Below, in pieces: positions 1 through 23,858 of a stretch of 23,858 nucleotides of DNA. Position 1 is the first letter of the stretch. Every line of letters begins with the position of its first letter. The position numbers and the translations under genes were made by a program. The stretch is taken from the IMG/VR virus record IMGVR_UViG_3300003267_000135, positions 42,605 to 66,462 of that record; one strand, given 5' to 3'. Source of the stretch: a virus. The notes below the pieces were generated by a model, which worked only from the letters and a program-made list of their open reading frames with translations, was not told where the DNA came from and made no database searches.

Positions 1-411
1 CTCCATCAGCCGCAGGCCGCAGCCGTAGTAGAGTTCGAACATGAGCCCGCGCGTGCCGGAGGTGAGCGCGAGTAATCGCTGCATTTCCTGCGGTGAGAGC
101 CAGACCGGCAGTCGGCGTGGAATGCGGGCACGTGACCATTGGCCCAGATCGCCGATCTCAATTTCGAGCACCTGTTTGAAGAGGAAAACAGCGGCGTTGA
201 GTGCGAGTGCCTGAGTCTTGGCGGCAACGCGCGGGGCCATTTCTTCGAGCCATCCGCGGATGCGATCCGAGGGCTTGGTGAATTCAGGGTGTGCGAGGCA
301 GAAGTCTAGAAACTTTCCGATTTCTGCGCGGTATCGCTGCTCGGTCTTAGGCTTGAAATGCCGTGTCTGGCATACGGCAGCGACGCGTTTGAGGATGTCG
401 GCTTTTTTCAT
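1..411 (-). CDS. intI: Integron integrase IntI-like tyrosine recombinase (N-terminal 137 residues, partial)
   Basis: The minus strand is open from an ATG at 409-411 to the left edge. IntI enzymes recombine attI with folded single-stranded attC sites to capture or shuffle gene cassettes. The visible part holds the SAM-like core-binding domain (HFKPKTEQRYRAEIGKF near residues 18-34, then an AHPE turn and the VAAKTQALALNAAVFLFKQVL helix), then the RRLPVWLSPQEMQRLL segment that opens the catalytic domain. The window ends at ELYYGCGLRLME, which contains the first catalytic arginine (residue 135). The YG.GLRLME form and the adjacent attC sites favour IntI over XerC/D. A good AGGAG lies three bases before the ATG. 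The IntI-specific insert and the HxxR and tyrosine motifs are off-window, so integrity cannot be judged. Confidence 0.88.
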   Translation of the reverse strand, partial: MKKADILKRVAAVCQTRHFKPKTEQRYRAEIGKFLDFCLAHPEFTKPSDRIRGWLEEMAPRVAAKTQALALNAAVFLFKQVLEIEIGDLGQWSRARIPRRLPVWLSPQEMQRLLALTSGTRGLMFELYYGCGLRLME

Positions 412-450
412 ACTCTCCTAGAAAGTTGGTCGGAGAATTACTTGTTAGGC
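412..450 (+). other. attI-like insertion site between integrase and first cassette
   Basis: Only 33 bases separate the integrase ATG from GTTAGGC at 444-450, a perfect GTTRRRY core whose expected cleavage point is between G444 and T445. An attI site is expected here, next to the integrase start and at the cassette boundary. The integrase ribosome-binding site (AGGAG on the minus strand, 416-420) lies inside it. On the minus strand the core supplies the TAA stop of the first cassette gene. The alternative is that it is the truncated end of an attC. The core is seen; the attI role is inferred from position. Confidence 0.55.
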
Positions 451-750
451 ATTAAGAGCATGGTGTGCCGTGTTGAGAATTTTCCGATAACCGTTCGGCA
501 GCCGCGCGACCTTGGAAATCGGGTTGTATTCGAAGTGGTGCTCGGTCTCGTCCATGATGACTTGCAGCGCGTTTTCGCAAAGCGTCAGGCGGCGCGCGGC
601 GTCACGAAGACCTTGGATTTCGCGCTGCTCTTCCTTGCGCGCGTCTTCATCGACCGCGCCGAGGGCGTGCAGCATTTCCTCTTTGTCATCCGCGAGGTGT
701 TTTAGCCAAGCGGGGCCTCCCAGTGGGACGGTTTCAGTTTTTGTGCTCAT
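445..750 (-). CDS. Cassette 1 hypothetical protein (101 aa)
   Basis: This minus-strand gene fills the first cassette. I chose the ATG at 748-750, giving an MSTKTETVPLGG N-terminus, because it lies 11 bases inside the neighbouring core site (762-768). A longer start at 783 would run through that attC. The product is hydrophilic and largely helical, with a charged stretch around DEDARKEEQREIQGLRDAARRL (about residues 33-54) suggesting a short coiled coil, and no signal or membrane segment. The TAA stop lies within the GTTAGGC core at 444-450, as is typical for cassette genes. No family is recognised. A plus-strand frame at 460-705 also exists but reads like an antisense shadow, rich in V, F and L. 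Confidence 0.6.
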   Translation of the reverse strand: MSTKTETVPLGGPAWLKHLADDKEEMLHALGAVDEDARKEEQREIQGLRDAARRLTLCENALQVIMDETEHHFEYNPISKVARLPNGYRKILNTAHHALNA

Positions 751-761
751 AGGTAATTCGT

Positions 762-858
762 GCCTAACTGTTGCTAGAGCCAACGCCGCTGGCGTCAGCC
801 GTTGAGTGATTTCGTTGCTCCGTCCGCGCCAGCGTCGCGGCTCACCGTTTTGTTAGGC
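762..858 (+). repeat. attC site 1 (97 bp)
   Basis: The site starts with GCCTAAC (762-768) and ends with GTTAGGC (852-858). Inside, GAGCC-A-ACGCCGCTGGCG pairs with CGCCAGCGTCGCGGCTC, leaving an unpaired A after GAGCC in the left arm. Canonical attC sites carry such extrahelical bases in the arm next to the RYYYAAC box, as in the aadA-type AAGCCGACGCC, so the recombination polarity reads as plus. The cassette genes around it are on the minus strand. Arm sequences are shared with attC sites 2 and 3. Confidence 0.85.
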
Positions 859-1092
859 GGAAGGCTCGCCACCCCACAGCGCGGGGGCGCGCTCAGTGGC
901 CATTGCGGCGTCGATGGCTGCGCGGGCCGTTTGGTGTTCCGTCGTGCGCGGCGGATCGACGCGAAAATCAACGAGCAGCCACGTTTCTCCGTCATCGGCT
1001 GGCCACACGTCGACGTTCATTGAGAGAAGCGCGTCGAGACGATGCTTGTCTCTTAGCAGTTCCGAGCATTGGTGTCCTTCGTAGGCGATCAT
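853..1092 (-). CDS. Cassette 2 hypothetical protein (79 aa)
   Basis: Small soluble protein that I do not recognise. It contains an acidic centre (MNVDVWPADDGETWLLVDFRV, split by a tryptophan-rich turn) that looks like two beta strands, and an alanine-rich helical C-terminus. I chose the ATG at 1090-1092 because it overlaps the stop codon of the upstream zinc-ribbon peptide as ATGA, a sign of translational coupling. A GTG at 1131 would give 92 residues. The TAA stop is inside the GTTAGGC core of attC 1. No function can be assigned. Confidence 0.55.
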   Translation of the reverse strand: MIAYEGHQCSELLRDKHRLDALLSMNVDVWPADDGETWLLVDFRVDPPRTTEHQTARAAIDAAMATERAPALWGGEPSA

Positions 1093-1178
1093 TTGTAGTC
1101 TATGGTTTTGTTGCAGAATTGGCAGCGCCACGCGCCGTCACGACACTCGCCGCCGCAGAGTCGGACAAAGCATCGCAA
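1089..1178 (-). CDS. Cassette 2 zinc-ribbon micropeptide (29 aa, TTG start)
   Basis: Very short reading frame at the 5' end of cassette 2. Translation from TTG at 1178 gives a cysteine-rich peptide containing LCGGECRDGAWRCQFCNK. Its cysteine pairs CGGEC and CQFC, with an aromatic between, resemble a minimal zinc ribbon. Its TGA overlaps the ATG of the next gene as ATGA, which supports both reading frames. The TTG lies two bases inside the core site of attC 2, where a cassette's first gene usually starts. No ATG is available in frame. An overlapping ATG at 1174 in another frame yields only 11 codons. The role is unknown; nucleic-acid or protein binding is a guess based on zinc ribbons in general. 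Confidence 0.4.
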   Translation of the reverse strand: MRCFVRLCGGECRDGAWRCQFCNKTIDYK

Positions 1179-1180
1179 AC

Positions 1181-1277
1181 GCCTAACCACACGCCAGAGC
1201 CAACGTCCCCGCTGGGGACGTTGGGAGCGTATCACGCGGGAAAGAGCGGGGCCGTGGCTCATCGTGGATCGTTAGCC
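1181..1277 (+). repeat. attC site 2 (97 bp)
   Basis: GCCTAAC at 1181-1187 and GTTAGCC at 1271-1277 bound the site. The arms GAGCC-A-ACG and CGTGGCTC pair with one unpaired A on the left arm, at the same place as in attC 1. A second palindrome, ACGTCCCCGCTGGGGACGT (about 1203-1221), forms a hairpin within the site. The gene of cassette 3 reads about a dozen bases past the core into the right arm and stops there (TGA at 1259-1261). Confidence 0.83.
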
Positions 1278-1558
1278 TCACGCAGAAATGGGCACCAATC
1301 CGGCGTCTCCTCGGTCCTGCCGATTAAGCGCCCGCCGTAGCTCTGGCGCTCGATAGCTTCGATGTGCGCGACGAGCCCTTCATGCCCAGGCACCTCTTCG
1401 CCTTTGAAGGCGTCCGGATGTGAGCACGCATAATCGCGCCACCCACTGGAGCCGCTACGTGTGCATAGGGAGCTGTGGCATTGGTGATATTCACAGATCC
1501 CGCATCTGGTCGTGACGCGGCTAGGGATCGTGAATCGAGTTGGTCCTTTGGTGTTCAT
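1259..1558 (-). CDS. Cassette 3 cysteine-rich protein with TPDWCP motif (99 aa)
   Basis: Starts with MNTKGPTRF seven bases inside the core site of attC 3, the usual position for a cassette start, without a Shine-Dalgarno. The product has an early cluster RCGICEYHQCHSSLC (about residues 18-32), then YACSHPDA, a GGRLIGRTEETPDWCP segment near residue 75-90, and a basic end. The spacing of CxxC, C-HPDA and TPDWCP recalls a widespread family of small metal-binding hypothetical proteins found in phages and accessory DNA. The function of that family is not established to my knowledge. The stop lies inside attC 2, so excision and re-insertion would alter the last few residues. Confidence 0.7.
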   Translation of the reverse strand: MNTKGPTRFTIPSRVTTRCGICEYHQCHSSLCTRSGSSGWRDYACSHPDAFKGEEVPGHEGLVAHIEAIERQSYGGRLIGRTEETPDWCPFLREANDPR

Positions 1559-1565
1559 AAGAAGA

Positions 1566-1680
1566 GGCTAACCAGTCGCTAGAGCACAACGCTCGGGGCT
1601 GGCCTTGTTATTCGGTTATGGGTTCAACGCTCGGAGCCGAGGGGTTATTCGCCCGAGCGTGGCTCACCTCGGTGTTGGGG
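1566..1680 (+). repeat. attC site 3 (115 bp)
   Basis: GGCTAAC at 1566-1572 and GTTGGGG at 1674-1680 are slightly degenerate core boxes. The arms GAGC-ACA-ACGCTCGGG and CCCGAGCGTGGCTC pair over more than ten bases, again with the surplus bases on the left arm. Two more copies of an ACGCTCGG-like word lie in the loop (about 1628-1635 and in the arms), making it longer than the other two sites. The family resemblance (GAGCxxAACG on the left, CGxGGCTCAC on the right) shows the three sites share descent. Confidence 0.8.
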
Positions 1681-1684
1681 GCCA

Positions 1685-1975
1685 TCAGGTCGAAGACTTG
1701 TGCCCGCAGATGGAGCATTTCAGAAAAGAAAGCCCGGCATAGAGCCAGAGACTGAACGCGCGTGCGCCGCACTTGGGGCATTTGAACGTCGTCGAGATCA
1801 GGCCATCATTCGCCGGCGAATCCTCATCGGCCCCCAACCCCTCCCCAGTGCCAACGCGCACAGTGAGCTCGCGAGATTCGGACGTGGCTTCTGCGCTCCA
1901 CCTTTTTAGGGCGCGCTGGTGGCGGCGAATGGCGCAATCGCGTTGATAAGCCGTCTGCTTTGGTGCTGTGCTCAT
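1685..1975 (-). CDS. Cassette 4 zinc-ribbon protein (96 aa)
   Basis: The N-terminal half is basic and helical (AYQRDCAIRRHQRALKRW). A flexible acidic linker follows (about residues 40-60), then a C-terminal zinc ribbon: FKCPKCGARAF, a hydrophobic strand, and LKCSICGHKSS, giving CxxC-x(about 18)-CxxC. Such ribbons bind nucleic acid or partner proteins; no specific role is evident. The ATG at 1973-1975 is preceded by a distant GGAG. The TGA stop falls just outside the core box of attC 3. No matching core box is visible directly upstream of the start, so this cassette's right boundary is damaged or lost. Confidence 0.65.
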   Translation of the reverse strand: MSTAPKQTAYQRDCAIRRHQRALKRWSAEATSESRELTVRVGTGEGLGADEDSPANDGLISTTFKCPKCGARAFSLWLYAGLSFLKCSICGHKSST

Positions 1976-2287
1976 TGGGCATTGTTCTCCGTTCAGGTGC
2001 GCGTCGGCACGTCTCGATTGTTAGCCGACATACGCGTGTGAATACTCAACCGCTTGAGCACTGCAAGCAAATAATCATTGACGACAAGCGGAAACGGTCC
2101 GATTCCGCAAACGCCGTCAGATATGTTCGCCACAACCGGCAGGCGAGAACGGGTGAGCGCGAAAGCGACAAAGTGAGTGAGGTGCGGGGCACAGCTCGCA
2201 GGAGGAGGAAATGCCCACCTTCGGATGATGTAACGCAAATGGCGATACGTCGCCACTCAACCGAACGTTAGAAAATCTCTCACTAAA
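1976..2287. other. Gene-poor junction between integron block and phage block
   Basis: About 310 bases lack a convincing gene. GTTAGCC at 2020-2026 is a half core site without a visible partner. Open frames on both strands (minus 1993-2256, plus 1960-2271) have no family resemblance, and their composition is unlike the neighbouring genes. The right end carries a hairpin with core-like flanks (2231-2273). No clear promoter for the capsid gene is seen. A TTGACG at 2078-2083 has no matching -10 box. Confidence 0.5.
2231..2273 (+). other. Hairpin with core-site-like flanks just before the capsid gene
   Basis: A perfect stem TGGCGA/TCGCCA (2240-2245, 2250-2255) closes a four-base loop. It is flanked by TAACG (2231-2235) and CGTTA (2266-2270), which can also pair. 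GTTAGAA at 2267-2273 resembles a GTTRRRY core except for the last base. The arrangement is reminiscent of a minimal attC, but it is shorter than typical sites and lacks extrahelical bases. It could equally be a transcription or mRNA structure 5' of the capsid gene. Confidence 0.25.
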
Positions 2288-3517
2288 ATGTCGTGCTCTC
2301 CGATTCCGATCGACCTTGCGACTCAGTTTTTCAGTCGTGACCCGACGCGCCTCTATGGCCCGATCGCGAAGTCACTTTTGACCGGCGTTCCTTACATCAG
2401 CGTTCTCCGCAGCGGCACGTTTCCGGCCGCGGTGGCGGCGACGCTCCTTTCCGTGGCGCAAGGGCGTCCGCGGATGGGCACTTCGCTGGCGAATCCGTCG
2501 TTCACGTCGATGATCGACTTGTGCGGCAGCGGTTCGCTGGTCGTGGACAAGAACGGCACGAACCAATACTCCTACGTTGCCGAGATCAACCAGGGCATGT
2601 CGGACAAAATCTGTCTGAATCAGGGTTTCAGCGCGTTCATGGGTTCGCTCACGGCGCAGTTGGAAGCCTATCAGACGGGCGTAACGGAGGTGATCAACGC
2701 CGACGTGCGTTATCAACTCTATCTGCGGTCCGGCGTGAAGGCCGTCGTTCAAGTCGGCGTCCAGCCGACGGCAATGATCACGGGCGGCGAGTATCAGATC
2801 GACACGCCGGTTCCGGCGATCGAGTCCGATGCGCGGCTCACGCAAAACCTGTTGCAGAGCTTCAACCGCTACATGCGGTCGGCACTGCGGGCGAAGCCGT
2901 TCGGTGCGGGGGCGCAGGCGCATTCGCGCTTGATCGCCTCGCCGGACGAGCTGGACGCCATCCGCGAAGACCTCGGCGGCGCGGCTGGTCCCGGTGGCGC
3001 AAACATCGTGCCGCTCGGTCAGGTTGCGGCCGGTGGCAACAAGATGGCGATCGACGCGCTGATCGGCTACCTGTTCGAGCCGCTTTACCGCGGCGTGCAA
3101 TACGGCGAAGACCCGATTCCGCTGCGCCTGAACTGGAACGGCGCTGGCTACGACCCGGTTGACCCGAACGCCGACTACTCGGCGACGGTCGGCACGGTCG
3201 CACAGGTCAGCTCGGATTGGCTGGAAGCGAGTCACGAAGTCGCGTTCCTGTTCTTCGACGGCTCGTTTGAGCGCCAAGTTCCGGCCCCATGGACCGGCGA
3301 GGGCAAAATTCGCTTCGCCCGGCAAATGTTCGGCGGGGACATTCAGTTCCTCAATCACCCGGACATGGTGTGCAATCTGTTCAGCGACTACGGCGTGATG
3401 GCCTACCGCATTGGCCGCGCGCTGCGTCCGCTGTATCCGTGGTTCGTTCTCCCCATCATCTACAAGCGATGCTTGGACGAGGCGAACCTCGACACTTGCA
3501 CGGGCGTTAGCGGCTAA
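2288..3517 (+). CDS. Major capsid protein (409 aa)
   Basis: First gene of the virion module and the best candidate for the shell subunit, probably HK97-fold. Support comes from its length, typical of podovirus capsid proteins, and its C-terminal pattern: an EVAFLFFDGSFERQVP strand, a GGDIQFLNHPDMVCN segment, then a conserved-looking C-terminal part with PLYPWFVLPIIYKRC. It is followed by a strong terminator and a T7-like order of tail and internal virion genes. The N-terminus (MSCSPIPIDLATQFF) has no signal peptide. There is no Shine-Dalgarno; ACTAAA precedes the ATG. Portal and scaffold genes, which precede the capsid gene in T7-like phages, are absent upstream. The family assignment rests on pattern and position rather than a diagnostic motif. 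Confidence 0.72.
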   Translation: MSCSPIPIDLATQFFSRDPTRLYGPIAKSLLTGVPYISVLRSGTFPAAVAATLLSVAQGRPRMGTSLANPSFTSMIDLCGSGSLVVDKNGTNQYSYVAEINQGMSDKICLNQGFSAFMGSLTAQLEAYQTGVTEVINADVRYQLYLRSGVKAVVQVGVQPTAMITGGEYQIDTPVPAIESDARLTQNLLQSFNRYMRSALRAKPFGAGAQAHSRLIASPDELDAIREDLGGAAGPGGANIVPLGQVAAGGNKMAIDALIGYLFEPLYRGVQYGEDPIPLRLNWNGAGYDPVDPNADYSATVGTVAQVSSDWLEASHEVAFLFFDGSFERQVPAPWTGEGKIRFARQMFGGDIQFLNHPDMVCNLFSDYGVMAYRIGRALRPLYPWFVLPIIYKRCLDEANLDTCTGVSG

Positions 3518-3647: not shown

Positions 3648-4814
3648 ATGGCAACAGGCGTTCTGATCTCGTCTTTTACGTATGTCGGAGTGCCGCCGTT
3701 GAGCGCGGTATTCGGGTTTTTCAAAACCTCGTCAGGCGTTCAAATCCAGCGGATTCAGATTTCGGCGCAAACGCCGCCCGTTGGTGGCAACATCACCGTT
3801 CAGCTCGTTGATGAGGCTGGAAACGCCTACGTTGGCGCTACTGTGGCGCTCCCAAGTGGATCGCCATATTACGATCAGCCGCTTGCGGCCCCGATTTCGC
3901 TAGGACTTGCGAAAATCGTTCGAGCGCAGATTACGGGCGTCGATCTTGGGGTGGCATCAGACCTCACCGTCAATTTGATTGGCGCAACAGCGCAAGGCAC
4001 GACGCCGCCCAGCGGATGCGGGCCGTCGAATTGCCAGCCACCGCAGGCACAACTTCTGTTTTTTCAGGGAAACGTCCAACAGCAGGTTGCCGAAGCGGCG
4101 GCGGAGGCAGCAGCGGCGGCAGCAAGTGCCACCGCGGCGAATGACTCGGCCGTTGCAGCGGCGTCTTCCGCCAGTGCTGCCGCGGGTTCTGCCAACGCAG
4201 CGGCGGCAAGTGATACGAACGCCGCCGCACAGGTTGTCTTGGCGGCGGGCTACGCGACGAATGCCAATAACGCAGCGGCAGCAGCCAACACGTATGCCGG
4301 ACAGGCGGCGACGAGCGCCACCAACGCGGCAACTAGCGCCGCCGAAGCGGCGGCAAGTGCTGCTGCCGCCAATACAAGGGCCGCGGCAACGATCGGGCTC
4401 ACAGTAGGAGCCACGCACACGATTCCCGACGCGGCTGAAACCGTGGTCAATTGGGACGGGGCCAATTTCGACGATGCGGCGTTCTGGAACTCGGGGGCTC
4501 CAAGCCGGATCACGGTTCCGGCAGACGTTACGCGGGTTCGTCTCAGCGCCGGCATTCGCTGGCCGTCTGCGGCAACGGGCTCACGCAAGATCACCATCAA
4601 GAAAAACGGCGGTGAGGCGTGGGCGACGTGTGATCTTTCCAGCGTCGATACCGGCAACGGCACGATTTTGACGCCAATCATCGAAGTGATCCCCGGCGAT
4701 TACTTTGAGGTTTATGTGGAGCAGGATTCCGGAGGCCCACTCGACTTGGAAACTTCCACGGTCAACGCCAACCGCAGCAATTTCTTTTGTGTTGAGGTGA
4801 TGGGGCAGTCCTGA
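3648..4814 (+). CDS. Fibre protein: AQTPPVG module, Ala-rich stalk, beta head (388 aa)
   Basis: A three-part adhesin-like protein. Residues 1-111 form a beta module with IQRIQISAQTPPVG that recurs in the gene at 21719. A short Cys/Pro linker (SGCGPSNCQPPQ) follows. Residues about 145-250 are an alanine-dominated, heptad-like stretch typical of a trimeric coiled-coil stalk. Residues 250-388 resemble the jelly-roll heads of phage fibres (VVNWDGANFDDAAFWN, then VPADVTRVRLSAGIRWP and ITIKKNGGEAWA). It probably decorates the capsid or tail and binds the host surface. It sits between capsid and adaptor genes, an insertion relative to T7. There is no Shine-Dalgarno; the start context CCGATTATTACACC resembles that of the next gene. 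Confidence 0.65.
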   Translation: MATGVLISSFTYVGVPPLSAVFGFFKTSSGVQIQRIQISAQTPPVGGNITVQLVDEAGNAYVGATVALPSGSPYYDQPLAAPISLGLAKIVRAQITGVDLGVASDLTVNLIGATAQGTTPPSGCGPSNCQPPQAQLLFFQGNVQQQVAEAAAEAAAAAASATAANDSAVAAASSASAAAGSANAAAASDTNAAAQVVLAAGYATNANNAAAAANTYAGQAATSATNAATSAAEAAASAAAANTRAAATIGLTVGATHTIPDAAETVVNWDGANFDDAAFWNSGAPSRITVPADVTRVRLSAGIRWPSAATGSRKITIKKNGGEAWATCDLSSVDTGNGTILTPIIEVIPGDYFEVYVEQDSGGPLDLETSTVNANRSNFFCVEVMGQS

Positions 4815-4828
4815 AGCCGATAATCACA

Positions 4829-6826
4829 ATGACGCGGCGCGACTGGCTCGCTGCCATCCTACAAACCAAACTCGCGATACAATTCTTCCATATGAGCTGC
4901 GGATGCCAACCCTCTTCGTCGAACTGCACGCCGTTCAATCCTTGCGCGCCTGAAAACTATGGCGGCATGTTCCCGTCTCTCGTGGGGCCAATGGGTCCTC
5001 CCGGTGGTCAGGGCACATTTCTGGAAAATTACGGGCTCCTTCGCGCGATCGATGCGACGGTTTTCCAAAACGGATATTTGGCCTACGTAGCCGGATACGC
5101 GGTGGCGGGCGACGGTGGTGAAGGAATCTTTCAATACCTTCCCGCGAGCGTGGCGGCAGATAACGACGGGACGATCATTTCGCCCGCCAATGCAATTGGC
5201 CGATGGCATCGCGTGTTCAGCGGATCGGTGAATGTGCGCTGGTTCGGCGCGAACAACAACGGCATAGTTGATGCCACGACCAAGGTTCAAAACGCGATCA
5301 ACTTCTGCAAGACATCCAGCAATCGCATTCTGTTCTTCCCGGTCGGAACGTATCTGGTGACGCAATCGCTCAACTGCACGTTCGATGCCGATGGGGAAGC
5401 GGCGTTTTGGATCGTCGGCGAGGACTGGAGAAAATCCATCATCAATGGGATTTTGACCGAGGCATATCCCGTTCTCGACTTCTCCGGTGACACGCGAGGC
5501 GGCATCAGAAACATCGAAGTTGTAGCGCCGACCGGATTGGCGACATGCACCGTGTTTTCGGCGAAACCAACTGCCGCCGCGAATTACGGTAACGTCTTCA
5601 CGGTGGATCACTGCGCCATCGGTTTGAAAACCGGAGTGACCGGAACAATCAACGACGTTGCGTTGGTCATTTACAACACTGACCTATCAAGCGTCTTCAA
5701 TTCCGAGATCAATGGTCCGACGGCCTGCACCGCGGGATTTGGGAAACGCGCTGCGATCACGTCGAAATATCAGACCACGCCAGCGTTGCAGGATAGCACG
5801 TTGATCAAGGTGCAAAATTGCATCTTCAATTCGTGGGCAGGCCCATCATTTGAATATACGGGCGGGGCCAAGCTGGTGTTGGACTTCTGCTATCTCGCGC
5901 TCGTGGGAGCCGGCTACACCTCGAACTTCAAGATCAGTGGAACGGGCGGAAAATCGGTGTATGCCCGTTCTCTTGAGATGGAAAACCAGAGCGTTCACGC
6001 CAACGTGGATGCCATCTATTTCGAAACGCCTTCCTTGTGCGGCGAAATATCGGGCGACATTGAGGCCGGCTCTGCGGGCGGTGACAGAATGTTCAATGCC
6101 CCGGTGTCACTCGGATCGTCGATGGCTCAATACAAGCTCATCGTTGCGAGTTCGGTTAATCCGATTTTCCGGTCCGGAACCGTTGTCAAAAACGTTCAGG
6201 TTTTCACCCAGCAGAACACGTTCGGCGGACCGCTGGACGCTACGAGTTACGGATTGGACATCGCAGAGAGCGCAGACAATTGGGGACGTGCGGCAAAAAC
6301 ACGATGGGCAGCTCGGATTGAGCGTCCCTTCGATGATAATGTCATCATGTCCGACGGCTCCGCAAGCGCCGATCCGCTGCTTCTGGAGCCCGATGTTCAA
6401 GTTTGGCCAACATTCCGAGACGCACGCTTGAGGGTCGCACGTTCGTCCGCCGAATGGCTGCAAATTGTTGGGTGCGCTGCCGGACACGTTGGCGGCGGTG
6501 CAAACAACATCATGGCGATTGACACGGTTGGAAATCCAAACGCTCGCCGGATCATCATTCGAAAGTCGGTCGATGCCGGCGCAACTTACACGCAGCTTGG
6601 GGCGATTTCGCTTTTGGGAGACATGGAGTTGTCGGGCACCGTTCAACCAAATGGTTATACTGTCGCCAACCTGCCGAGCGGCCTGACTCAAAGCTACGCT
6701 ATCGCATTCGTGTCGGATGCCACCACGGCACAGGGGGTCGGAAGTGGCTTGGCCCCGGTCGGCGGCGGCGCAAATAAGCGGCCCGTCTTTACCACCAACA
6801 ACGGGACGAACTGGCTGCAATTTTAA
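4829..6826 (+). CDS. Tailspike with pectate-lyase-like beta-helix (665 aa)
   Basis: The N-terminus has a Cys-rich patch (SCGCQPSSSNC) and a short collagen-like GPMGPPGGQG run near residue 53. From about residue 134 the VRWFGANNNGIVDATTKVQNA motif opens a pectate-lyase-superfamily beta-helix (compare the FGAxGDGxxDDTxAIQxA signature), with FFPVGTYLV following. The C-terminus (from about residue 570) has a KSVDAGATYTQLGAISL-like strand region and ends with NNGTNWLQF. Such spikes bind or cleave surface polysaccharide; no catalytic residues are assigned here. The start at 4829 is favoured by its context, CCGATAATCACA, shared with the preceding gene. An ATG at 4892 (MSCGCQ) is a credible alternative. 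It lies in the same insertion between capsid and adaptor. Confidence 0.75.
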   Translation: MTRRDWLAAILQTKLAIQFFHMSCGCQPSSSNCTPFNPCAPENYGGMFPSLVGPMGPPGGQGTFLENYGLLRAIDATVFQNGYLAYVAGYAVAGDGGEGIFQYLPASVAADNDGTIISPANAIGRWHRVFSGSVNVRWFGANNNGIVDATTKVQNAINFCKTSSNRILFFPVGTYLVTQSLNCTFDADGEAAFWIVGEDWRKSIINGILTEAYPVLDFSGDTRGGIRNIEVVAPTGLATCTVFSAKPTAAANYGNVFTVDHCAIGLKTGVTGTINDVALVIYNTDLSSVFNSEINGPTACTAGFGKRAAITSKYQTTPALQDSTLIKVQNCIFNSWAGPSFEYTGGAKLVLDFCYLALVGAGYTSNFKISGTGGKSVYARSLEMENQSVHANVDAIYFETPSLCGEISGDIEAGSAGGDRMFNAPVSLGSSMAQYKLIVASSVNPIFRSGTVVKNVQVFTQQNTFGGPLDATSYGLDIAESADNWGRAAKTRWAARIERPFDDNVIMSDGSASADPLLLEPDVQVWPTFRDARLRVARSSAEWLQIVGCAAGHVGGGANNIMAIDTVGNPNARRIIIRKSVDAGATYTQLGAISLLGDMELSGTVQPNGYTVANLPSGLTQSYAIAFVSDATTAQGVGSGLAPVGGGANKRPVFTTNNGTNWLQF

Positions 6827-6830
6827 CGAC

Positions 6831-7232
6831 ATGAACGACTCCGCATATTCCAACGAGATCGACCTTGGCCGCAAGGAGCCGGACCTTGGCGAGATCAAGC
6901 CCGCGTCGCCGGCCGGCAAGAAAGGCAAGCCGCGCGTGTTCTATCCCTCGCTCTACATTGATAACGTCGAAGGGATTCCATCGCTGCCCAAAGAGGGACG
7001 CATGTTGGTCGAGTTCCGTCGCAAGCGGATGAGCGTCGAGGAAAACATGGACGGCAAGGAAACGGCGGGAGTGACGCTCGAAATTCGCAAGCTCTGTCTG
7101 CCGGAAGACATGGCCGAGGAGGGAGACGACATGGCAAGCGCGATGAAGGATTTTGCCAAGGGCAACGGCGTGGACACAGGAACAGCCGAAGCCAAGGACG
7201 ATCGGGACGACGATGACGGCGACGAGGAATAA
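6831..7232 (+). CDS. Small acidic virion-associated protein (133 aa)
   Basis: Starts four bases after the tailspike stop. The middle reads RVFYPSLYIDNVEGIP, then a strand-rich EGRMLVEFRRKRMSVEE and VTLEIRKLCLP. The YPSLYI...G..L.VE..V pattern recalls small capsid cement or staple-like proteins of tailed phages, but I cannot confirm it. The C-terminus is extremely acidic (DDRDDDDGDEE), as in some scaffold or DNA-mimic tails. Position between tailspike and adaptor suggests a head-associated structural role. A scaffold role is worth considering, since no scaffold gene is otherwise visible. Confidence 0.55.
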   Translation: MNDSAYSNEIDLGRKEPDLGEIKPASPAGKKGKPRVFYPSLYIDNVEGIPSLPKEGRMLVEFRRKRMSVEENMDGKETAGVTLEIRKLCLPEDMAEEGDDMASAMKDFAKGNGVDTGTAEAKDDRDDDDGDEE

Positions 7233-7237
7233 TCAAC

Positions 7238-8215
7238 ATGATCGTCACGGTGCGCGACGCTTGGGAAGGTTCTAAAAATCCGGCCATACTCGGAATCGGT
7301 AGCCGCGATCTTTTTCTTGATTACCTGAAACGCGCTGTCGAGTTGGCAGCGTTCAAGGCCAATTATCAGGTCTGGCTTGGCACGCTGGATGTGTGCAGTA
7401 ATCATTGCGGCTACGTCACACTACCTTCGTTTGTGGGAACGGTGCTACAGGTGAACGTAGGCGGCGCTCCAACCATGTTCCGCAATCCGTGGTATGGCTT
7501 CCACGTCAACGGAGCTGGCGATCAGTGTTGCGGTCCAGCCGTCGGATTTTCAGACGATCTTGGCTACTCTCCTACGTTTCAGGACTTGAAGGAATGGAGC
7601 ATGGTCGCAGCCATTTGCGAGGACGCGATCGACGGCAACGGCTCGCTCAAGATGATCGTCGAAGGCGAGACGATGGATGCGATGAGCAATCCAAAGGAAG
7701 CCATCACGATTCCGGCAAGCGGCCCGTCGTTGTCCGGCGTGCAAATTCCGCTGATGCTTAATTGGGCCAGCAGCGATCCGGCGTTCACGTGGTTCAAGAA
7801 GATCACTCGCGTCACGAAGCCCGTCACCCGCGGTTATGTGAAGTTGATCGGTTTTCCGCAACGCTCGATGGCAACGGCGGTGACGCTCGGCTACTACGCT
7901 CCCAACGAGACAAATCCGATTTTCCGGCGCATTCGTGTAGGGTGCGCGTGCAGTTGGGTGCGCCTAAAATATCGCCGCGCGTCACTTGCCATGGTTAATG
8001 ATTGGGATGTTGTGCCGATCGGTAGCTATCAGGCGACGCTCGAATTGCTGAAGGCTATCCGGTTGGCGGATACAAACGACGTGGCCGCAAGTGAGGCGTA
8101 TTTGGCGCGTGCGGTGCGTTTGCTCAATGAAGTCGAAAGTATCCAAAATGGCAGCACATGGAGCCCGATCCAAGTTGAGCCGGGCTTTCTCTACGGGACA
8201 CTCGATTGGCGCTGA
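7238..8215 (+). CDS. Adaptor / tail tubular protein A-like (gp11-like, 325 aa)
   Basis: By position, immediately before a nozzle-like gene and downstream of the capsid gene, this corresponds to T7 gene 11, whose product forms the ring joining portal to tail. The protein is longer than T7 gp11 (196 aa). It has an N-terminal helix with RDLFLDYLKRAVELAAF, a Cys-rich loop (VCSNHCGYV and GDQCCG), a beta-rich centre, and a C-terminal helical hairpin ending in EAYLARAVRLLNEVESI, a form common in adaptor proteins. The start context AATAATCAAC lacks a Shine-Dalgarno. The function is inferred mainly from synteny. Confidence 0.55.
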   Translation: MIVTVRDAWEGSKNPAILGIGSRDLFLDYLKRAVELAAFKANYQVWLGTLDVCSNHCGYVTLPSFVGTVLQVNVGGAPTMFRNPWYGFHVNGAGDQCCGPAVGFSDDLGYSPTFQDLKEWSMVAAICEDAIDGNGSLKMIVEGETMDAMSNPKEAITIPASGPSLSGVQIPLMLNWASSDPAFTWFKKITRVTKPVTRGYVKLIGFPQRSMATAVTLGYYAPNETNPIFRRIRVGCACSWVRLKYRRASLAMVNDWDVVPIGSYQATLELLKAIRLADTNDVAASEAYLARAVRLLNEVESIQNGSTWSPIQVEPGFLYGTLDWR

Positions 8216-8218
8216 TCC

Positions 8219-10294
8219 ATGGAAACGCCACTGCCATCACGCATCACCGTCCAAGGTGGCAATTACAACGGGCAAGCCGTTGGATGGCCGCTTGGGGTGG
8301 ATAGCTTCAGCCATCCTCTGTTTGTGGACGCGCGCCAATTGCGCTGGCTGGAAAACGCTGTGACGCAGGGCGGCTTCATGCAGGTGCGGCCGGGATTTCT
8401 GACGCGTGGCGTGTTCGATGCCAACGTTCAGGGGAGCCTTGCAAATCTGTGGTGGATTGCAAATGAAGGCCCGTTGATGCACCCGCAAATGCTCGTGCGA
8501 TTTCGACCGAGTGGAGGATCATCGGACCAGTTGGTTTTTGCCGTCGCTGGCAGCGTGTTTTACTGCGCGGTCAATCCGGATGGATCGCTGGGGCCAATCG
8601 CGCAAATTCCGGGGCTGCGATTCAACCGTTATGCGGACGTGCTAGTAGGATGCCGGTGTGTGCAAACCGCGACGATTGAAGCTGGCATCTACAAGAACAA
8701 CGTCGCGCCACGGAACCTACTAATCATTCAGGACGGCGTTAATCGCGCCGGCATTTGGGATGGAAATGTGGGTGTTCACGCCAATCCCCAAAAGAAGATC
8801 ACGAACACGGCAACGGGAGACACGCTCTATCCCGAGGCGTGGAACCAGACGCGCATTGGCCTTTGGATGGCATGGAGTGGCAACCGTCTTTTCGTGTTTG
8901 ATGGTCCGAACGGCTATGCGTCCGACCTCAACGACCCAACGCATTTCACCGAGGAACTGAACTTACAGTCGTTCCCGAAATTTGTTTTTCCTGAGGACGT
9001 GACCGGGGCGATTGACCGTGGCACGAGCGGCACAACGCGGAGCCAAGTGGTCGTCTTCACCCAGACAACGACTTGGACGCTATGGAGCGGAATCCAAAAC
9101 CGCTTGCCGTCGCCGTATGGCGTGGGCTGGCAGTTCACGGACGATTTTCAGACGAAGATTTTCGATGCGGTCGGCTGCGTCGCGGGCAAGTCCGCGATCG
9201 TCCATCGCGGGCTGCTTTATTGGAAGTCGCAGGGCGGTCTTGTGCTGTTCGATTCCGCCCAGACGGTGAACAGCTCGCAAAACCTTCCGCCGATTGATTC
9301 GGAAATGGCGTATTCAAAAACCAAGGTATCGCCGGCAGCGGAGGGGATCGATCTGACCTGTGCGGGCCGATTCGACAACTATGTGTTTTGGTCTGTTCCC
9401 GTTGGGCGCGTGACCGATGGTCGTCGCTACTGCGCCCACACACAGGTCTTGGACCGCCAAACCACCGTTGTCCGCAGTTCGGGGGTGCAAGGCCCGTTCA
9501 GCGGCGGGAGCACGGGTTGGCAAGGCGTCTGGACGGGCATCCGTCCGGTCGAATGGGCGGGTGTGAAGGTTGGTGGACATGACCGCGCGTATGCGCTTTC
9601 CTTGGATGGTCCGGGGGCGGTCCGAATCTGGGAGGCGTTTCAGTCCAATCGAGCCGACAACGGGCGTCGCATACCGTGGCTTTTTGAAACAAGATCGCAT
9701 CCGGTCCAGCCGACGATTTTTGGATATGCGCAGTTCAACCACTTTCGACTTCTGATGGATCAGATTGGCGGCAACGTGGACTTGCTCGGCTACTGGCGTG
9801 GGATCAAGGGCACGTATCACCAGTTGCTAGATACGCGCATCACGGCGACGCCGGGGACCGTTCTGCTGCCGCTTCCGCAGTTCACGCCGATCACCAATGG
9901 CACTCAAAACGGCAGTTTGGCGCTTCAGGGGCGCACGGTGATTTCGCCGAATCACCTTGGGCCGACGGAATGCGGTTCGCAGAATGTCGAATCCGAGTGG
10001 GACGACTCAAAGGATCACGCTTTCAGCATTGCTGTTAGGGTCACGGGCCGAGCCGCAGTCTCCGCTTATATGCTGGCAGTCGATTCGCTGCGCGACAACA
10101 GTGACGGCACCGCGCAGAAGGCAACCGGCGTAAGTGAAGAGGGGTTCAATTTAATGCCCGAAGGCGGATGCCCGTCGCACGAGGACGGAGCGACGCCAGA
10201 TTATGTGGCCCAGCCGCAGCCGCCGCAGCTTGTGGCTTGCCCGTATCTGCCCGCACAAATGTTGACGGACGAATATATCGCACCCACGGCTTAA
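8219..10294 (+). CDS. Tail nozzle / tail tubular protein B-like (gp12-like, 691 aa)
   Basis: Large beta-rich protein following the adaptor-like gene by three bases. The N-terminus has the shape expected of nozzle proteins: a segment listing bound sites, FVDARQLRWLENAVTQGGFM, then QVRPGFLTRGVF, close to the 'N....G.....RPG' pattern seen in T7-like gp12 homologues. Repeated WxG/WSG strands (WMAWSGNRLFVFDG, VVFTQTTTWTLWSG, HRGLLYWKSQGGLVLFDS) suggest propeller-like blades. Length is near that of T7 gp12 (794 aa). The product would form the distal tail channel through which DNA leaves. Evidence is synteny plus repeat pattern. Confidence 0.62.
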   Translation: METPLPSRITVQGGNYNGQAVGWPLGVDSFSHPLFVDARQLRWLENAVTQGGFMQVRPGFLTRGVFDANVQGSLANLWWIANEGPLMHPQMLVRFRPSGGSSDQLVFAVAGSVFYCAVNPDGSLGPIAQIPGLRFNRYADVLVGCRCVQTATIEAGIYKNNVAPRNLLIIQDGVNRAGIWDGNVGVHANPQKKITNTATGDTLYPEAWNQTRIGLWMAWSGNRLFVFDGPNGYASDLNDPTHFTEELNLQSFPKFVFPEDVTGAIDRGTSGTTRSQVVVFTQTTTWTLWSGIQNRLPSPYGVGWQFTDDFQTKIFDAVGCVAGKSAIVHRGLLYWKSQGGLVLFDSAQTVNSSQNLPPIDSEMAYSKTKVSPAAEGIDLTCAGRFDNYVFWSVPVGRVTDGRRYCAHTQVLDRQTTVVRSSGVQGPFSGGSTGWQGVWTGIRPVEWAGVKVGGHDRAYALSLDGPGAVRIWEAFQSNRADNGRRIPWLFETRSHPVQPTIFGYAQFNHFRLLMDQIGGNVDLLGYWRGIKGTYHQLLDTRITATPGTVLLPLPQFTPITNGTQNGSLALQGRTVISPNHLGPTECGSQNVESEWDDSKDHAFSIAVRVTGRAAVSAYMLAVDSLRDNSDGTAQKATGVSEEGFNLMPEGGCPSHEDGATPDYVAQPQPPQLVACPYLPAQMLTDEYIAPTA

Positions 10295-23172: not shown

Positions 23173-23585
23173 TACCGAATTGGCCCATTGCGTTTTTAGC
23201 GATTGTCACTGGTGTCACATTGTATGCCGACCCTATCGATCTCACACGTCAGCAGGCGAGCGATCTCTTCGTGGCGCTGCAACGGATCGATCCGGGACTA
23301 TCGCCTGATAACGTCGTGGTGGCGGCGGACAACATCACCGCGTTAAAGCCGATCGTCGAAGCACTCGACAAGGGCAAGGTGCGTGCGCAACGCGAAATGG
23401 ACGCACTCTCTGGCGAAGATCGCGCCGCAAAGGCGTGGGCGATTCGTGACAAGATCGAGGCCAAGGGCGATGAAGTGGTGAAGATCGATCTGACGCGCAT
23501 GGAAATCACCGCGGACGAGATCAAGGCCGCGAAGGTGCGGCCGGCTGACTTGGCTCCGCTGCGCCAATTTCTGAAGAAGAAATGA
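23169..23585 (+). CDS. Small exported hypothetical protein (138 aa)
   Basis: Start chosen at the ATG overlapping the previous TGA (ATGA, 23169-23172); the frame upstream is a shadow of the fibre gene. The N-terminus MIPNWPIAFLAIVTGVTLYA looks like a signal peptide with cleavage after LYA. The remainder is charged and helical (about residues 22-138), with DALSGEDRAAKAWAIRDKIE and a basic end LRQFLKKK. Its place before a membrane protein suggests a lysis-cassette member such as a periplasmic spanin-like subunit. However, there is no lipobox cysteine, and the idea is speculative. Confidence 0.55.
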   Translation: MIPNWPIAFLAIVTGVTLYADPIDLTRQQASDLFVALQRIDPGLSPDNVVVAADNITALKPIVEALDKGKVRAQREMDALSGEDRAAKAWAIRDKIEAKGDEVVKIDLTRMEITADEIKAAKVRPADLAPLRQFLKKK

Positions 23586-23858
23586 ACCTCCCGCGTTATC
23601 GCGCAGGACCCGTTGAATACTGGCTCGCGGCGGCGGGAACTGAGTTCATCAACGGCTTTATTGCCGGGCTCGGCGGCGGTGCAATTGCGGGAGCCGGGAG
23701 CGGTGTGGCAGCTTCATCGACCGGCCTTTGGTCGGGCGCTGACTGGATCACGCAAGTGTTGATTGCGATTTTCGGCGCAACAATCGCGGCACTCGGAAAC
23801 GGGTTTAAGACTCTCATCGTCTGGCATCACAGCAACCCATTTCCTAATCCGTGGCCCA
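23582..23858 (+). CDS. Small membrane protein, holin-like (92 aa seen, 3' end cut)
   Basis: The ATG overlaps the TGA of the preceding gene (ATGA). The product has two hydrophobic stretches separated by a short turn: about residues 20-45 (EFINGFIAGLGGGAIAGAGS) and about 52-75 (DWITQVLIAIFGATIAALGN). A proline-rich NPFPNPWP end follows. Two membrane segments, small size and the position after the tail fibre genes match the T7 gene 17.5 holin, which forms lysis pores in the inner membrane. It runs off the right edge without a stop codon, so total length is unknown. Confidence 0.55.
   Translation, partial: MNLPRYRAGPVEYWLAAAGTEFINGFIAGLGGGAIAGAGSGVAASSTGLWSGADWITQVLIAIFGATIAALGNGFKTLIVWHHSNPFPNPWP

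Follow-up and report, generated by a model that had tools for sequence, protein, structure and literature searches.

Integrons in bacteria and phages

Integrons are regarded as bacterial platforms that are occasionally picked up by phages. Phage integrons and CALINs were reported in 2023 (Qi et al., PMC9892861); the main text of that report describes complete integrons in four temperate phages, two of them with host chromosomal integron fragments, and attC clusters lacking intI in virulent phages, the latter attC sites having been shown to work with IntI1. The suggestion of the first-pass annotation that a phage-borne integron would be a new way to move integron cassettes was thus partly anticipated. 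The loci analyzed here resemble those of Qi et al. in combining an integron integrase, an attI-like site, attC sites and cassettes, including methylase cassettes, within phages, but that work (PMC9892861) is not known to report virus-only IntI lineages, insertion among head genes or reversed cassettes. Bacterial chromosomal and class 1 integrons likewise share with our locus the IntI family, an attI or attI-like site beside intI and an attC stem whose left half carries an extra base, but their cassette genes point away from intI (reversed in 0 of 10 control loci). In the reverse integrons of Treponema (PMC3607928), intI is co-directional with the cassette genes, as it is here; however, there it is intI that is flipped and transcribed toward attI, whereas in our locus the cassette genes are flipped and the intI start lies beside attI. 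Finally, the deposited phage record Virus Rctr41k (KX853513.1, L023), which Qi et al. (PMC9892861) do not mention in their main text, carries an IntI-like gene annotated merely as xerD, together with methylase genes and five or more attC-like sites (4680-10101), but the 3' end of its intI faces the array, the layout known from Treponema, and its IntI shows only 38-39% identity. Within published open-licence papers, virus-only integrase lineages, reversed cassette genes and clean insertion between head genes appear to be new.

A small, probably phage-borne integron

The window, that is, the whole stretch of DNA analyzed (23,858 nucleotides), corresponds to bases 42605-66462 at the right end of a 66,462-b IMG/VR virus record (66.5-kb contig), which contains three NN scaffold gaps (907, 28837 and 42603). 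Our analysis makes it highly probable that this contig belongs to an environmental tailed phage carrying a complete small integron of its own, with reversed cassette genes and a presumably active integrase.

The first-pass annotation had recognized an IntI N-terminus at the left edge of the window. Indeed, codons 1-137 of intI occupy positions 1-411 on the minus strand, with the start codon at 411, and the gene is completed to the left of the window, ending at contig position 42035 (L004:12035-13015, minus strand). The full protein (326 aa) matches the NCBIfam model TIGR02249 'integron integrase' with 266.5 bits and passes its cut-off of 265 bits, even though the scaffold gap at contig positions 42603-42604, just left of window base 1, falls inside intI and costs the protein ~17 residues relative to the IntI of another phage, L014. 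The Pfam domains SAM_4 and Phage_integrase, the IntI-specific patch ...REWGWFWAFPS... and the active-site residues R, H, R, H and Y are all present; the active site predicted from these residues is intact and the enzyme may be capable of recombination.

Directly upstream of intI lies an attI-like site (412-449, plus strand), which ends in the core GTTAGGC (about 443-449, with the cut expected after G). The intI start codon is located ~32 bp from this core, and the 3' end of the gene does not face attI. Of the 38 bases that separate the intI start from the first core site, 31, counted by eye, are identical to those of L014. The three attC sites announced earlier are confirmed at 762-858 (attC1, score 21), 1181-1277 (attC2, score 19) and 1566-1680 (attC3, score 18), all with the top strand being the plus strand. 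No dinucleotide shuffle of positions 444-2287 contained three sites on one strand (0/300) and only 4/300 contained two, whereas the remaining 63 kb of the contig yield eight scattered hits, both strands together; a chance origin of the array is therefore unlikely. The bottom strand of attC1 folds better than the top strand (-26.3 vs -20.4 kcal/mol). In the integrated form, the outer box of attC3 is weak (GGCTAAC...GTTGGGG); as judged by eye, pairing of the outer boxes is best in circular cassettes, where the first bases of each cassette complement the left box of that cassette's attC (twice GTTAGGC/GCCTAAC, GTTAGCC/GGCTAAC and, as a doubtful fourth pair, GTTGGGG/CCCCAAC). The last pair involves a possible degenerate attC4 (CCCCAAC ... 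GTTAGCC; about 1832-2027, plus strand), recognized by eye and not called by the attC finder, which overlaps the ORF of cassette 4 and whose CCCCAAC pairs with the GTTGGGG opening that cassette.

Each cassette contains an ORF on the minus strand. The ORF of cassette 1 (445-750; 101 aa) points toward intI, has a codon score of +0.23 per codon, similar to phage genes, and takes its stop codon from the core site, whereas that of cassette 2 (853-1131; 92 aa, with ATG near 1092; codon score +0.11 to +0.15) has its stop codon within the attC1 core. Cassette 3 encodes a Cys-rich protein (1259-1558; 99 aa) with a codon score near zero, and cassette 4 a zinc-ribbon-like protein (1685-1975; 96 aa; Zn_ribbon_3, E 0.001, below cut-off). 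Searches returned no homologues for the cassette proteins of the window, including ORFs 1-3 among GenBank phages, and an Rfam search of positions 300-2600 gave chance hits only. With an IntI match and at least two attC sites with ORFs between them, the locus can be assigned to the integron family on its sequence features.

Insertion site and empty site in related phages

The left part of the contig encodes RecT, exonuclease VIII, a primase-helicase (phrog_239, 2e-91) and a terminase (phrog_2, 1.8e-7; contig 29487-31475). The terminase is followed by portal-like and scaffold-like ORFs and then by methyltransferase and glycosyltransferase genes, which precede the integron. To the right of the integron lies the major capsid protein candidate (2288-3517, plus strand; 409 aa). 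This label, proposed in the first-pass annotation, draws on gene order (terminase, portal-like, scaffold-like, ... capsid candidate, tail genes) and by 78-82% identity among relatives, but no match was found in Pfam, PHROG, NCBIfam or PDB; the portal is likewise a candidate by synteny, with no PHROG or PDB match, and AlphaFold predictions for the two candidates were uninformative (mean pLDDT 29 for the capsid and 37 for the portal). The description of the virion module as T7-like is supported only in part: its gene order is podovirus-like, but most of the virion proteins have no family match.

The search with the capsid candidate recovered nine related phages, which all share the gene order up to this gene and all lack the integron (9/9); in L007 and L012, the same methyltransferase and glycosyltransferase genes immediately precede the capsid candidate. 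A leader of ~200 nt ahead of the capsid candidate start (2074-2287, plus strand), with the invariant CCCACCTTCG, is conserved in the relatives and retained in the window. Its alignment comprises 36 predicted pairs, of which 6 are changed on both sides, but the covariation term is unfavourable; Rfam contains no match to it. The integron does adjoin the virion genes, as initially described, but since ~2074-2287 is phage leader, its right edge falls at about 2027-2050, short of the capsid gene. On the left, the edge falls somewhere between the stop codons of the glycosyltransferase gene and intI.

Two further features of the relatives were observed. In L005, L006, L008-L011 and L013, the terminase is on the opposite strand compared with contig 29487-31475, and therefore the block is inverted in one lineage. 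The capsid candidate of L008 (10001-11230) has an in-frame stop at 10279.

A family of viral integron integrases

A search with IntI identified L014, whose IntI is 74-76% identical to that of the contig, yet whose terminase (phrog_15, 2.4e-23) and portal (phrog_21, 8.6e-36) are unrelated to those of the contig. The attC stems of L014 have the same GAGCC.CG/CG..GGCTC core as those of the window, but its cassettes are different. That an unrelated phage combines a close IntI with other cassettes argues that the unit moves between phages. A search for relatives of L014 by terminase matched only L014 itself.

Alignment search revealed at least 80 viral IntI loci, and phage hallmark genes near intI were confirmed in L014, L027, L028, L029, L063, L067, L070, L074 and L084. 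A single-sequence IntI scan of genome contigs gave no hits, and a scan with a two-sequence alignment gave seven, with 39-46% identity; the closest known IntIs are thus viral. In a quick tree with a narrow bacterial sampling (60 IntIs from two groups), virus-only clades of 31 (support 99) and 9 rows (support 100) were recovered. The IntIs of the window and L014 form a pair (100) inside a virus-only clade also holding L027, L028 and L029 (98), and the tree requires 14 label changes between viruses and bacteria compared with 47.7 in shuffles. The residues R, H, R, H and Y are conserved in 82 of 82 viral IntIs, and dN/dS is about 0.05-0.15 in ten viral pairs (with saturated dS for L014 vs the window), which shows that purifying selection generally acts on viral IntIs.

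These results bear on the possibility that a single chance transfer from a host brought in the integron, which persists as a dead remnant with no role in the phage. The presence of the integron in only one of the ten phages of the group, the degraded appearance of attC4 and the orientation of the array, antisense to the late genes, all speak for such a fate. However, IntI is open except at the gap and keeps its active site, viral IntIs are generally under purifying selection, and a close IntI accompanies other cassettes in L014; we consider a remnant unlikely.

Reversed polarity of cassette genes

In the window, the cassette ORFs are directed toward intI, while the attC sites have the usual polarity. 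The top strand of attC was assigned by the extra base of the attC stem, using a home-made finder that calls the expected polarity at only about 78-80% of sites: attC is in the ordinary orientation relative to intI at 64 of 80 bacterial and 109 of 141 viral sites. Among cassettes with usual-polarity sites, 24 bacterial ones point away from intI and 1 toward it (10 loci vs 0), whereas 39 viral ones point toward intI and 13 away (21 loci vs 3); one of the three viral exceptions, L077, has a long array of the bacterial type. The contrast is smaller when loci with at least three attC sites are considered (5 toward vs 2 away in viruses, 0 vs 6 in bacteria). Codon scores were included in this comparison, which was too noisy without them. 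As neighbouring phage genes are often on one strand, false attC calls between ordinary genes of this kind could account for part of the signal; the window, L014 and L084 are cases in which a cassette gene lies between clear attC sites. Reversed cassette genes were confirmed by family in three instances: N6_N4_Mtase in L014, and DNA_methylase and DUF5131 in L084. A Treponema-type reversal was ruled out, as intI is in its usual position.

It could be argued that the true cassette genes of the window are on the plus strand, as in ordinary integrons, and that the minus-strand ORFs are spurious, considering that high G+C yields long ORFs on both strands and that one plus-strand ORF (358-705) also scores as coding. 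However, the other plus-strand ORFs score negative and three of the four minus-strand ORFs positive, family matches fix the coding strand in L014 and L084, and the contrast between viruses and bacteria persists with the same caller, all of which renders this reading improbable. Because the cassette genes are reversed, a Pc promoter at attI driving cassettes away from it is unlikely. A promoter search around the right end of the array gave no hit.

Integrity of the assembly

An exact direct repeat of 122 b is common to both contig ends (contig 1-122; window 23528-23649); given this repeat, the record probably represents a nearly complete genome. The two copies each precede diverging versions of a holin-like ORF, an arrangement that points to a genome with variants that is either circularly permuted or terminally redundant.

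A misassembly, whereby a fragment of a bacterial integron was wrongly joined to a phage contig, was named in the first-pass annotation as the main alternative, and both the scaffold gap within intI and our failure to find the same join in a second assembly (no other IMG/VR contig carries the exact right junction, so that the join is known from one assembly) speak for it. Nevertheless, both flanks form one synteny block, ordered as in L007 and L012, and each is joined to integron sequence inside its own scaffold piece, the left junction before the gap and the right one after it; therefore, assembly would have to have failed twice, independently, at either end of a single empty site. Moreover, the two halves of the contig IntI match the continuous L014 protein equally well, the nearest IntIs are viral, bacterial ones being 39-46% identical, and G+C is even along the contig. 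A misjoin is accordingly very improbable. A prophage inserted in a bacterial array, the other option considered initially, is made unlikely by phage genes in conserved order on both sides. A phage carrying its own integron is best supported, by the flanking virion genes, nine integron-free relatives, junctions in two scaffold pieces and L014.

A model of phage integrons

We propose that the phage acquired the integron between the glycosyltransferase gene and the leader that belongs to the capsid gene. During infection, the phage-encoded IntI would join attC sites of circular cassettes to the attI directly upstream of intI, with attC and attI in the usual relative orientation and only the gene inside each cassette inverted. 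The inverted genes and intI would then form one co-directional run, which lies on the minus strand here, antisense to the late genes, and in the sense of the phage operon in L014. Because the cassette genes are inverted, they may be expressed by phage transcription that enters the array at the end distal to attI, or by promoters of their own, instead of a Pc at attI, and a new cassette would enter at the promoter-distal end, opposite to the situation in bacterial integrons. Such a platform could let phages gain, lose and swap short accessory genes, for example, orphan DNA methylases.

Whether phages maintain an integron class of their own, with several virus-only IntI lineages, reversed cassettes fitting phage operons and exchange of cassettes among unrelated tailed phages and with bacteria, is a proposition to which we give even chances. 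If true, dedicated phage integrons would explain the shuffling of small accessory genes, such as methylases and unknown ORFs, among unrelated phages, and phages would serve as a reservoir of cassettes as well as a vehicle for them. The reversal of the genes also poses the question of whether the direction of a cassette gene is selected by the attC site or by the promoter that reads it.

Cassettes of phage integrons repeatedly encode DNA methylases, as in L014 (784-1683), L084 (6264-7193) and L023, which fits an anti-restriction role.
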